Source: Singulisphaera sp. GP187
GTDB taxonomy: Bacteria; Planctomycetota; Phycisphaerae; Phycisphaerales; SM1A02
Assembly (NCBI GenBank): GCA_945869475.1
Contig: CAMBOV010000018.1
Coordinates: 1 to 53,718 of the forward strand
DNA: 53,718 nt
Direction of reading: 5' to 3'
Numbering within the stretch: position 1 is the first letter of the stretch; each line of letters starts with the position of its first letter. The translations under genes and the position numbers were made by a program. The notes beneath the pieces were generated by a model. It was given only the letters and a program-made list of their open reading frames with translations, did no database searches and had not been told where the DNA came from. Shown here one piece after another: positions 19,433-22,613 of the stretch.

Positions 19433-19599
19433 GGGTAGAAAAAAATCCCAAAAAGAATCTGCCTCGGCGGAGTATGGCGCGAGATCGCAGAAAGTCCATA
19501 AATGTTTGCATTACAGATTGTTATGCGAAAAACTATCGGTCACATCGACTTCTCGGACCTTGTGAAGTCGTTGCGTTGTGTGGCGTTCAGCATGAAATT

Positions 19600-19639
19600 T
19601 GGTTCAAAGTGTTGCAATGTGGGGCAGGGTGGGTATATT
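19600..19639 (+). promoter_or_regulatory. mraZ promoter with four 10-bp direct repeats (probable MraZ operator)
   Basis: Four head-to-tail decamers: TGGTTCAAAG (19600), TGTTGCAATG (19610), TGGGGCAGGG (19620), TGGGTATATT (19630). E. coli MraZ is known to bind TGGG-type repeats with a 10-bp period in front of mraZ, and mycoplasma MraZ binds AAAGTG repeats; both cores occur here. The repeats overlap a promoter: TTGCAA at 19612-19617, 16 bp, TATATT at 19634-19639. Binding would block RNA polymerase, so autorepression is the simple reading. Confidence 0.75.
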
Positions 19640-19666
19640 GATGGCGTCTCCACATGGACCTCCCTC

Positions 19667-20137
19667 ATGCTCTTCCTCGGCGAATTCGAACACAGCCTCG
19701 ACTCCAAGCAACGCCTCGCAATTCCAAGCGAATTGCGCGAAGTGTTGAATCCTGCAGTCAACGGCGATTCGTTTGTTGCAGTGCCTGGACCAGATCAAGC
19801 ACTGCTGCTCTGGCCCAATGGAACGTTCGAGAAACTTGCGGATGGCCATGGGGGATCACTGATCGGCGACGAAGTGTTGCGTCGCTTCGAACAAGAATTC
19901 TTCAGCCAAGCCGCTCGCTGTCCGCTCGACTCAGCAGGACGCGTGCGAATTCCAGACAGACTCCTCTCACGGTTCTCGCTCGCGGGAGCTGTGATCATTC
20001 TTGGAGTTCGGGATCACCTCGAACTGATTTCGTCGGCGACCTGGAAGGCCAAGCAGAAGGAACGGGACTCCACTGCCGCGACTCTTTGGCGCGACGCGAG
20101 TCAGCTTCTCAATTCACGGTCAGGTGGTGCACGGTGA
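19667..20137 (+). CDS. mraZ: Transcriptional regulator MraZ
   Basis: 156 residues. DNA-binding ring-forming regulator of the AbrB/MraZ superfamily. Seen: two MraZ repeats, the first with DSKQRLAIP (residues 12-20) and the second with DSAGRVRIP (near 90-98), the DxxxR signature of the family, and the opening MLFLGEFEHSLD. Normal length. The ATG at 19667 follows a promoter with 10-bp repeats; an upstream ATG at 19641 is out of frame. In most bacteria mraZ leads the division and cell-wall cluster; here no rsmH, fts or mur gene follows. Instead the stop codon lies inside the first of five CsrA-target-like hairpins that lead to csrA. Confidence 0.95.
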   Translation: MLFLGEFEHSLDSKQRLAIPSELREVLNPAVNGDSFVAVPGPDQALLLWPNGTFEKLADGHGGSLIGDEVLRRFEQEFFSQAARCPLDSAGRVRIPDRLLSRFSLAGAVIILGVRDHLELISSATWKAKQKERDSTAATLWRDASQLLNSRSGGAR

Positions 20138-20373
20138 TGGATCGCCCGCACCAAGATGACCTCGCTTCGACACGGATGTCGTAGCGCACGATTAACTCTC
20201 AGGATCCGCAAGGATGCGGTTTCTGAGCGGAAAAACGGGTTATGGATGACCCGAAAGCACGTACGGCATCCGCCATGGATGGCAATGTCGTACACATTCT
20301 CGGGTTGGTTTGTTATCCACCCCGATAACGCTGTTGTCCCCCGCGTCACTGGCCCGACGCGGGGGCTTTTTTT
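20126..20373 (+). ncRNA. Candidate CsrA-sequestering RNA: five ANGGAT hexaloop hairpins plus terminator
   Basis: Seen: five hairpins with GGA hexaloops. H1 20126-20152: loop ATGGAT 20137-20142, stem GGTG/CGCC plus GGTGC/GCACC. H2 20164-20185: ACGGAT 20172-20177, stem CGAC/GTCG plus GCT/AGC. H3 20198-20227: AAGGAT 20210-20215, CCGC/GCGG plus CTCAG/CTGAG. H4 20236-20253: ATGGAT 20242-20247, CGGGTT/GACCCG. H5 20261-20293: ATGGAT 20275-20280, GCC/GGC plus a 9-bp stem GTACGGCAT/ATGTCGTAC. A sixth hairpin without GGA (20312-20329) and a terminator follow. Known: CsrA dimers bind ANGGA in hairpin loops, and CsrB/RsmZ RNAs titrate CsrA with arrays of such loops. Inference: a CsrA sponge. H1 contains the mraZ stop codon, so it may be the mraZ 3' UTR or a processed product; I see no strong separate promoter. 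Confidence 0.8.
20338..20373 (+). terminator. Strong intrinsic terminator of the mraZ/sponge transcript
   Basis: Ten-bp perfect stem CCCCCGCGTC/GACGCGGGGG (20338-20347 and 20356-20365), 8-nt loop, then C and seven T (20367-20373). It separates the hairpin array from csrA. Confidence 0.95.
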
Positions 20374-20591
20374 CGCCGATGTGTGTGGCTCCCATAACGG
20401 GGTATTTCTTGGAATTGTGAATTGGACCGGTGGATCAATCCGATCGAGCGATACCCTTCAAGAAGGTCAGTCGCTGAGCCGATGAAGAATCGACTCGGCA
20501 TTCGCAGGGAGGACGCACGGTGTGTCCGAGGCGAGCTGAACAAGTCGGTGGGCGACGCCCCACCGTATCAAGGGCAGGAGGTCCGCACGTT
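20374..20591 (+). promoter_or_regulatory. Long csrA leader, possible autoregulatory region
   Basis: 218 nt between the terminator and the csrA ATG without a credible gene. Seen: GGA motifs at about 20420-20440 in an ATTG/CAAT-closed loop, a GC-rich hairpin GGTGGG/CCCACC at about 20546-20563, and a strong Shine-Dalgarno AGGAGG at 20576-20581 that itself contains GGA. CsrA often represses its own translation by binding GGA at the ribosome site; that this happens here is inference. I cannot place the promoter confidently. Confidence 0.45.
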
Positions 20592-20828
20592 ATGTTGGTC
20601 ATCACCAGACGAGAAGGCGAAGAAGTTGTGATCGGAAATCCAGCATCCCCAATTGGGATCGTTCGGATTGCCTCGATCAAAGGTGACCGGGTGCGCATCG
20701 CATTTGAGTTCCCCCGTGAAGTCGCCGTGCACCGCAAAGAAGTCGCCGAGCAGATTCTTGCTGGAGCGGTCGATCCCACAAAGAATGTCATTGGACAGAT
20801 TCGCCCCGCAGCCGAAGGCGGCGCGTAA
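20592..20828 (+). CDS. csrA: Carbon storage regulator CsrA
   Basis: 78 residues. RNA-binding dimer that controls translation and stability of mRNAs by binding GGA in hairpin loops; in many bacteria it controls flagella and central metabolism. Seen: MLVITRREGEEVVIG, the IVRIASIKGDRVRIAFEFP strand region, and EVAVHRKEV, with the RNA-contact arginine at R48 in VHR. About 10-15 residues longer than the E. coli protein at the C terminus. ATG at 20592 has AGGAGG ending 10 nt upstream. The candidate CsrA-binding RNA lies directly upstream. Confidence 0.97.
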   Translation: MLVITRREGEEVVIGNPASPIGIVRIASIKGDRVRIAFEFPREVAVHRKEVAEQILAGAVDPTKNVIGQIRPAAEGGA

Positions 20829-21101: not shown

Positions 21102-21125
21102 ACGATGAGTCTAGACAGATTTTTC

Positions 21126-21131
21126 TACACT
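21126..21131 (+). promoter_or_regulatory. Candidate -10 element for a leaderless transcript
   Basis: TACACT, 6 nt before the ATG at 21138. It supports this ATG over an upstream one at 21105. Confidence 0.6.
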
Positions 21132-21137
21132 CCGTCG

Positions 21138-22613
21138 ATGCAAATGACCCGTCGAGAGAGTGCGCAGCCGCGTGTGCGAGGAGTGCTCGGTGTGTTGGCG
21201 GTGTGTGCGACTCTCACCGCAGTGCTCCTGCTCTCTGCGTGCGCTGCGACTCCGGCGGGAGATCCGCTGCAATCACTCGATCGCACAGACCTCACTCCGG
21301 CGCGACAAGTCGCAGCGATGCGGGTGCTCGACGCTGATCCAGTTGCGCCTGCCTATCTCAAGGCGCTGCGCCGAATGATCGTGCAGCCTGGGTTCTCGCT
21401 CGAGCTTCGCAATGAAGCATGGGATCGACTCGTCGTGAATGACATGGCGGGATTGAAGTCTGCGCTCGAACTGAATCTTCCGCGAATGATGATTTATGAG
21501 TGGCGACGAGAAATCTGCAAGCGCGTCGGCGGCTTGGGATGGAAAGACCTCACGCCGACGCTTGTGCGCGCATGGGCGGTGATCATCCCGGCGTACGGCG
21601 CCGATTTGTGGGAGCGCCCTGAATATCTCTCACTCGTCACGCTTTGGGGAAAGGACCGCGTCCCACAAGTGCTGTACGAACTGTTGCTGAAGGCCGATCC
21701 AATCAAAGAAGCGAATCTGCGCAGTCGATGCTGGGAGTTGTTGCTCGCAACCGGCGAGCGACCGCGCATTCTGGCGCTGCTCGCTGACACGCAGAGCGCG
21801 TCGACCGATTCGTTCATCCTCGACATGCGCCGGTCGGCGACCGATCTTGGAATCATTCCACGCAATCGCGAAGAGATCTTGTGGATGCGCGCGCTGCGAA
21901 TGCCTCAGAAGCGTGCATTCTGGGATGCCACTCGCGCAGCGGCGCAGAAGTTGTCGCCAGAGATTCGCGAGACGCTCGAGCCACGCGACCTCGCGATCAT
22001 CGTTGCAGCAGAGGCTTGGAAGCCCGAGTTGCTCAGTGCGACTCGCGATCAACTCTTCGCGCAAGTCAGCCTTGCCCTTTCGCCCGAGAAAATACGGCGA
22101 TATGGAGCCTCATTCGAGGGGTATGGCACGCAACTACCCGAAACTCCTCGCGCTCACGATGCGCAGTTGCGGTGGGGGGATTGTGCGGCGATCTTGATCG
22201 CACTCGACGCGCTCGAGAATCCAGCCATTCGAGCGCATCTCTTTGACATCGCGGATCGCGATCAAGCGGATCGATTGACAGAGTATGGAGGATTGCTGCG
22301 ACTCGATAGCAACGGTCGCTACGAACTCGTCGAATGCGCTCCCCAATCACGCGGCAGTGATGTGCGCTTCGAAGCCTCGCAAGAGATGTTCGATGCGGGC
22401 TACGACGCACTCTTTCACTTTCACAATCACGCGCAGACCTTCGACAATCAGCGGTATGCAGGTCCGCACTTCGGCGACTTCGGCTACGCCGACGCGACCG
22501 GAGTGAATGGATTGGTCTTCACGTTCATCGACCGCAGCACGATGAACGCCGACTACTATCGGCGCGGGCAAGTCGTGATCGACCTCGGAACCGTCAAGCG
22601 CCCGGAGCAATGA
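21138..22613 (+). CDS. Putative lipoprotein of unknown function with JAMM-like C-terminal motif
   Basis: 491 residues, not recognised. Seen: lipoprotein signal with lipobox LSAC (Cys35), a long helical middle (about 60-370) that looks like HEAT/TPR-type repeats, and a C-terminal domain with ALFHFHNHAQTFDN followed by GPHFGDFGYAD, which recalls the HxH...(S)xxD metal site of JAB1/JAMM proteins; this is a visual comparison only. I chose the ATG at 21138 over that at 21105 because of the -10-like TACACT 6 nt upstream and because it gives a normal signal peptide. Its stop overlaps dapF (ATGA). Confidence 0.75.
   Translation: MQMTRRESAQPRVRGVLGVLAVCATLTAVLLLSACAATPAGDPLQSLDRTDLTPARQVAAMRVLDADPVAPAYLKALRRMIVQPGFSLELRNEAWDRLVVNDMAGLKSALELNLPRMMIYEWRREICKRVGGLGWKDLTPTLVRAWAVIIPAYGADLWERPEYLSLVTLWGKDRVPQVLYELLLKADPIKEANLRSRCWELLLATGERPRILALLADTQSASTDSFILDMRRSATDLGIIPRNREEILWMRALRMPQKRAFWDATRAAAQKLSPEIRETLEPRDLAIIVAAEAWKPELLSATRDQLFAQVSLALSPEKIRRYGASFEGYGTQLPETPRAHDAQLRWGDCAAILIALDALENPAIRAHLFDIADRDQADRLTEYGGLLRLDSNGRYELVECAPQSRGSDVRFEASQEMFDAGYDALFHFHNHAQTFDNQRYAGPHFGDFGYADATGVNGLVFTFIDRSTMNADYYRRGQVVIDLGTVKRPEQ

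Follow-up and report, generated by a model that had tools for sequence, protein, structure and literature searches.

CsrA-sponge circuits are well known in Escherichia coli and Pseudomonas. The small RNAs CsrB/CsrC and RsmX/Y/Z carry an intrinsic terminator, and the Rfam family TwoAYGGAY comprises RNAs of other taxa with two hairpins and AYGGAY terminal loops. The gene mraZ codes for a widely conserved regulator whose role is poorly understood. In work on E. coli, MraZ was found to repress its own promoter.

Control of the Csr/Rsm small RNAs by BarA-UvrY/GacA was described for Gammaproteobacteria (PMC7652899). RsmW of Pseudomonas aeruginosa is the 3' UTR of PA4570 (PMC4950607). RsmU of Xanthomonas campestris is an RsmA-sequestering RNA processed from the 3' UTR of XC1332, a predicted ComEA gene. 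It has four predicted GGA motifs, a GGA mutant still bound RsmA, and it lies outside the known Rsm families (PMC7694677). Together, RsmW and RsmU indicate that CsrA-family sponges can be made from 3' UTRs. RsmA sponges derived from 3' UTRs were also predicted in Vibrio fischeri (PMC5568370).

The locus described here is part of a stretch of 53.7 kb, which was analysed as a whole and is referred to as the window. An array of GGA hairpins is located between mraZ and csrA on the mraZ strand (+). It has several GGA hairpin loops in common with CsrB/CsrC and RsmX/Y/Z, which titrate CsrA (PMC7652899). It differs from these RNAs in having no Rfam match, in that no sigma70-like promoter of its own was found, and in being tied to mraZ. 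RsmW, to which the array is likened in its mode of action, belongs to another phylum and another carrier gene; the present array rides on mraZ, whose promoter is MraZ-box-like, and is conserved order-wide. With RsmU the array shares the 3'-UTR type and a position outside the known Rsm families, but order-wide conservation and linkage to csrA are not described for RsmU in the cited sections of that report (PMC7694677). UpsM of Rhodobacter sphaeroides likewise shares the mraZ transcription unit. It is, however, a 5' leader RNA upstream of mraZ that is made by termination, and the cited part of the source describes no CsrA role for it (PMC5089854).

At the gathering score, Rfam models identified three tRNAs in the whole window and no CsrB, CsrC or RsmX/Y/Z. 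Nine sub-threshold matches to 20050-20650 were obtained with E up to 10, six of them over the terminator. NsiR1 scored best, its 30.5 bits (E 0.00046) falling short of the cut-off of 39. TwoAYGGAY was not among these matches, and no paper on it was found. The CsrB, CsrC and RsmX/Y/Z families were also absent from 20 fetched loci. A first-pass annotation of the window had suggested that such an RNA was not described for Planctomycetota, and none was present among the literature matches listed, with subscription journals mostly outside the search. The array would work like RsmZ or RsmW, yet it falls outside the Rfam families, rides on mraZ, occurs order-wide and, as far as searched, belongs to a new phylum. 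The segment 20118-20373 very likely forms the 3' portion of the mraZ transcript, a predicted array of CsrA sites with a terminator that would act in trans as a sponge under the control of MraZ.

Hairpin array in the window

The first-pass annotation had proposed five hairpins with GGA hexaloops at a spacing of 32-38 nt, four of them with an outer stem, the mraZ stop codon within the first hairpin and a terminator at the end. This description was correct at each point examined. The hexaloops, in the DNA ATGGAT, ACGGAT, AAGGAT, ATGGAT and ATGGAT, were found at the proposed sites (Table 1) and are 35, 38, 32 and 33 nt apart. Outer stems are present in H1, H2, H3 and H5. With G-U pairs allowed, the stem next to the loop comprises four contiguous pairs in H1, H2 and H3, six in H4 and three in H5.

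Table 1. Features of the mraZ-csrA region, in window coordinates
Feature	Position	Strand	Remarks
Predicted sigma70-like mraZ promoter	19612..19639	+	TTGCAA-16-TATATT; sole such match in 19450-20650
MraZ-box-like direct repeat	19620..19633	+	TGGG-N6-TGGG, 10-nt period; inside promoter spacer; only one in window
mraZ	19667..20137	+	TIGR00242, E 5e-22, below curated cut-off; tblastn relatives
H1	20118..20161	+	Loop AUGGAU at 20137; inner and outer stems; mraZ stop codon inside
H2	20163..20186	+	Loop ACGGAU at 20172; 87% paired, 4 pairs with two-sided change
H3	20198..20227	+	Loop AAGGAU at 20210; two helices, 80-84% paired, 8 pairs with two-sided change
H4	20236..20253	+	Loop AUGGAU at 20242; single stem; 93% paired, 3 pairs with two-sided change
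H5	20261..20293	+	Loop AUGGAU at 20275; short inner stem (three pairs)
Extra hairpin without GGA	20300..20325	+	Weakly conserved, 56% paired only
Intrinsic terminator	20338..20373	+	10-bp stem (20338-20365), C, seven T
csrA	20592..20828	+	PF02599, above cut-off; single CsrA match in own genome

The minimum free energy of 20110-20390 was -121.6 kcal/mol, compared with -100.5 +/- 5.25 kcal/mol for shuffled sequences (z -4.0), and 0/200 shuffles were as low. Dinucleotide shuffles of 20120-20300 (20,000) held zero, one or two hairpins each and never the five observed. A chance origin of the window array is excluded, because of the fold z of -4.0 and because the shuffles never exceeded two hairpins. 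Across the whole window and on both strands, no other place had three or more ANGGAN hairpins with stems of at least 3 pairs clustered within 180 nt. A three-motif pattern scan of the own genome gave 13 places, two of which overlapped the array, and the reversed control gave none. The other 11 places were judged from their motif matches.

Elsewhere in the window, a 502-aa frame follows a NifU-like gene (21105-22613, +). Neither Pfam nor NCBIfam gave a match for it at an E-value limit of 0.001.

Conservation in the family

The CsrA search included 67 genomes of the same family, and 66 csrA loci were fetched (G159 was left out). mraZ was absent from the stretch in L018, L053, L055 and L056, and csrA was upstream of mraZ in L032. 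The other 61 of the 66 loci had a gap of 231-685 nt (median 441 nt) after mraZ, followed by csrA. Grouped by shared 30-mers, these 61 gaps formed 60 groups and were thus strongly diverged.

On the mraZ strand of the gaps, 138 of 355 hexaloop stems with at least 5 pairs carried ANGGAN. The opposite strand had 0/318 and the flanking DNA, on both strands, 11/1895. The 138 hairpins represented 109 distinct stem sequences. Given how far the gaps have diverged, the loops are retained amid otherwise changing sequence. With stems of at least 3 pairs, at least two ANGGAN hairpins were present in 59/61 gaps, at least three in 48/61 and a single one in 2/61; on the opposite strand, one such hairpin was found in 2/61 gaps. 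Hairpin spacing within the array differed between genera. The array fold in 18 hand-picked gaps had a median z of about -3.6, ranging from -1.3 to -5.9.

Base-pair compensation was analysed in 17 sequences of the genus. Two-sided pair changes numbered 31, compared with 22.8 +/- 2.4 in shuffled alignments and 11-19 with the partners slid. The reference structure was the window's own, a choice that tilts the slide control in its favour. The covariation score was 0.189 versus 0.102 shuffled and 0.044-0.085 slid. The number of further pair types was a weak measure, with 67 versus 61.0 and this level reached by 36/500 shuffles. The H1 helix was 81% paired with 6 pairs changed on both sides. Three helices were poorly kept with 40-62% pairing, namely the extra hairpin, the outermost stem of H1 (20118-20122/20157-20161, 62%) and the outer stem of H5 (40%). 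The inner stem of H5 was 71% paired, and in 10/16 genus relatives its position was held by a GCC/GCT-AGGAN-GG pentaloop instead of a hexaloop. All cells of the terminator were paired (100%), yet 9/10 pairs were invariant. In the 17 genus sequences, the stems vary with compensation and the GGA loops stay, as expected from the first-pass reading. The array thus has several GGA motifs in ANGGAN hexaloops, compensated stems and invariant loops, the traits of small RNAs of the CsrB/RsmZ type, although compensation was weak by the pair-type measure and in the three poorly kept helices.

Named loci were kept for 80 of 348 relatives, mostly MAGs. Many were named as Phycisphaerales, Phycisphaerae, Planctomycetia or Planctomycetota, and some bore other names. 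Among the named loci kept, the best match was L141, a Lake Baikal MAG assigned to Phycisphaerales, with 95% identical mraZ and the same five-hairpin array.

Loop features and the CsrA protein

The CsrA of the window gave phmmer matches to solved CsrA-family chains including 2jpp, which we take to be RsmE. Strand 1 (MLVITRR) and the VHRKE segment align with 2jpp and the other chains, with a four-residue insertion between them. Residues L4 and R44 were named as critical in the CsrA family (PMC7652899, PMC4950607). The window protein has I at position 4, a conservative change, and keeps the arginine. A CsrA match was present in 201/201 genomes of the order; in family f5 the match was weak only, yet 3/6 f5 loci had ANGGAN hairpins.

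The SELEX consensus of CsrA is RUACARGGAUGU, with six-base loops closed by AC/GU in 44/55 ligands and mostly stems of up to 4 pairs, and RsmE ligands have an ANGGAN hexaloop (PMC7652899). In the 61 gaps, the closing pair was C-G in 124/138 ANGGAN hairpins versus 73/217 other hexaloop hairpins. Loop position 2 was free, and position 6 was U or C in 125/138. Unlike in the SELEX consensus, the second stem pair was mostly not A-U, and many stems, notably in other genera, were longer than those of the SELEX ligands. Over the 29 kb of gaps, there were just 4 occurrences of the exact SELEX core ACANGGAUGU. The loop, the closing C-G and the pyrimidine at position 6 fit a CsrA/RsmE site and would be compatible with binding of this kind.

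Another GGA-hairpin-binding protein than CsrA might be the ligand, or the array might be a structured RNA of some other kind. The rarity of the full SELEX core in the gaps and the f5 loci that have hairpins beside a weak CsrA match would suit this explanation. We consider it extremely unlikely, with loop, closing pair and position 6 all fitting the CsrA/RsmE site, a CsrA match in every genome searched and csrA following the array in 61/66 family loci. The first-pass assignment to CsrA gained support from the retained loops, the compensated stems, the C-G closure and CsrA in all 201 genomes. As judged from these features, a CsrA-type binding array is a strongly supported prediction.

Linkage to mraZ and taxonomic range

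According to the first-pass annotation, the RNA was encoded in cis directly before csrA. This is the arrangement in the window and in 22/61 gaps including the window, where csrA lies downstream on the same strand, and it does not hold in general, with csrA convergent to mraZ in the other 39/61 gaps. The orientation bears on whether the array is an autoregulatory 5' region, that is a leader or attenuator, of csrA. The 22 same-strand gaps agree with such a leader, but the 39 convergent gaps do not. In genome G189 (L032), csrA is upstream of mraZ and two GGA hairpins are still located downstream of mraZ. Other families bear hairpins behind mraZ without csrA nearby, and in the genus the array is set apart from csrA by the terminator and by a separate, conserved leader that belongs to csrA. 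A csrA leader was therefore rejected as the general reading. As a general mechanism it is already contradicted, and the probability that the array has this function is very small. The RNA belongs to mraZ rather than to csrA, because csrA is convergent in 39/61 gaps and the hairpins follow mraZ where csrA lies elsewhere in the genome.

The separate leader, 20375-20591, is conserved in the window and 15 genus relatives. It comprises a TCGCANGGARGACGCACGGTGCGTCCGAGGCGA-like block, a GGTGGG/CCCACC hairpin and the ribosome site AGGAGGTC, and possibly serves csrA autoregulation.

For the other families of the order, mraZ was matched in 36/39 genomes, and loci were taken for the best 30 of these 36, 27 of them from five other families. 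Up to 450 nt downstream of mraZ, these 27 loci from the best 30 of 36 had ANGGAN in 26/87 hexaloops on the mraZ strand and in 0/117 on the opposite strand; the control region at 600-1200 nt had 0/81 and 1/88. At least one ANGGAN hairpin was present in 18 of these 27 loci (best 30 of 36). The other 9/27, including all 3 of family f4, had none with a stem of at least 5 pairs. Among the loci sampled from these other families, none was found to have csrA beside mraZ. Conversely, no hairpin cluster was found beside csrA in 48 csrA loci without nearby mraZ, 4 of them from the same family; isolated single hairpins occurred in some. This distribution, with hairpins following mraZ in other families and csrA elsewhere, favours the 3'-UTR link to mraZ that the first-pass annotation had considered.

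The sole cluster among these 48 loci was observed in another family, where three AGGGAA/AAGGAA hairpins (L092:3724-3850) are located about 1.6 kb from csrA.

A survey of the class used the same region of up to 450 nt behind mraZ and an rsmH-like motif within 750 nt of mraZ. This motif was a home-made pattern from recall, so the rsmH counts are approximate. The order (f1-f6, 30 loci) had ANGGAN in 29/100 hexaloops and the rsmH-like motif in 0/30 loci. Families f8 and f11 (12 loci) were intermediate with 9/37 hexaloops and 1/12 loci. Thirteen families of the class (f7, f10, f12, f13, f15-f20, f22-f24; 33 loci) had 8/83 hexaloops and 28/33 loci, or 9/87 and 29/34 with L251 included. The sample comprised f1-f24 except f9, f14 and f21, and L232, L235, L252 and L257 were dropped as repeats of counted genomes. 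Outside the class (29 loci), ANGGAN was found in 3/108 hexaloops, and the rsmH-like motif was present in 16/29 and missing in 13/29. Loss of rsmH behind mraZ alone brings no array, because the hexaloops outside the class were at 3/108 though the motif was missing in 13/29 loci. It seems that the array first appeared inside the class, among lineages whose mraZ had already parted from its former neighbour. The groups were separated by the hairpin measure alone, not by how densely bare ANGGA occurs on the mraZ strand (for example f20 12.0 per kb, f2 9.4 per kb).

A frame of about 60-75 codons after mraZ was seen by eye in L123, L128 and L140 (f5) and in several of L229-L278 from other families of the class. 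It often precedes an rsmH-like frame. Family f5 seems to keep a related frame, partly with GGA hairpins.

Promoter and terminators

The promoter scan covered one promoter type (sigma70-like), and in 19450-20650 a mean of 0.5 promoter-like matches is expected from shuffles. No site of this type was found between the mraZ start and the array. A MraZ site was described as four seven-base repeats with three-base spacers and a GTG motif (PMC7761207), and the direct repeat in the window has the same 10-base period. The exact repeat was present up to 170 nt upstream of mraZ in 47/78 named loci, compared with 0/78 control stretches (L169 and L189 were excluded from this count), and in 18/30 further mraZ loci versus 1/30 control stretches. 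The exact repeat was missing in 31/78 named loci, and its carriers include many close relatives. The sequence GTGTTGCA..GTGGGGC...GTGGG was largely kept in 12 relatives, picked among those with the repeat.

No terminator-like hairpin was located between the mraZ stop codon and the last GGA hairpin in 53/61 gaps. After the array, one was recognised in 52/61 gaps and none in 9/61. One terminator-like site lies inside the mraZ of the window (19967-19994). With no terminator between mraZ and the array and one after it, the layout is that of a 3'-UTR-derived RNA. As in sponges of the RsmW/RsmU kind, the array is found directly behind a same-strand open reading frame and has its terminator only at the end.

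The same layout raises the question of whether the hairpins serve the mraZ mRNA in cis. CsrA on the 3' hairpins would stabilise or destabilise this mRNA or block 3' decay, with no meaningful titration. Three observations agree with a cis element: the array comes after mraZ in the family loci and, in the other families of the order, in most of the loci sampled; the mraZ stop codon lies within H1; and a separate sigma70-like promoter was not found. The number of sites, however, usually two to four (at least three in 48/61 gaps) and kept in diverged sequence, exceeds the needs of one cis switch, and the 3'-UTR-derived RsmW and RsmU can bind RsmA (PMC4950607, PMC7694677). A purely cis-acting element is unlikely, though cis action and a sponge are compatible and not exclusive.

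Proposed mechanism of the sponge

In the preferred reading, a trans-acting sponge, the mraZ transcript would bear high-affinity CsrA sites in its 3' part (20118-20373), in the form of C-[ANGGAY]-G hairpins, and end in the terminator. The full-length or processed RNA would act in trans on CsrA. Each CsrA dimer may be held on one or two hairpins, which would free CsrA-repressed mRNAs. The mraZ promoter would determine how much of the RNA is made. Because this promoter carries the MraZ-box-like repeat, autorepression by MraZ probably keeps the sponge in check. In this way, MraZ may couple growth or envelope status to CsrA.

FliW and a second CsrA

FliW was present in 47/61 family genomes searched. 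Both counts were available for 38 of the 61 genomes, the other 23 being outside the 201-genome CsrA search. Thirty of these 38 had FliW and two CsrA matches, eight had no FliW and one CsrA match, and none was mixed. All eight genomes without FliW had three to five hairpins behind mraZ. A clearly different second csrA was located near fliW in 12/12 of the FliW loci fetched (L279-L290, 12 of 47). FliW-type antagonism was rejected for the CsrA of the window: in the own genome, which is 96.7% complete, no FliW match and one CsrA match were found. Since FliW tracks the second csrA (30 with both, 8 with neither), the sponge probably serves the FliW-independent CsrA. The csrA beside the array is most likely this one, and a division of labour between two CsrA proteins would fit these counts.

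A joint reading for the Phycisphaerales is conceivable, at slightly less than even odds. The ancient dcw pioneer mraZ would have left its operon and become an autoregulated carrier of a CsrA sponge; it is placed outside its operon because 0/30 order loci had the rsmH-like motif within 750 nt. Many cells would then have two insulated Csr circuits, with CsrA1 controlled by the MraZ-linked sponge and CsrA2 by FliW, and division or wall status would set the global post-transcriptional programme via MraZ. Family f5, with its weak CsrA match and hairpins in 3/6 loci, fits this two-circuit picture poorly.

For the DNA that follows mraZ, the array suggests a function. Whether FliW and small RNAs act together in any species "remains to be determined" according to a 2020 review (PMC7652899). 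With FliW and two CsrA matches in 30/38 genomes and the family array in 61/66 loci, this question becomes directly testable.
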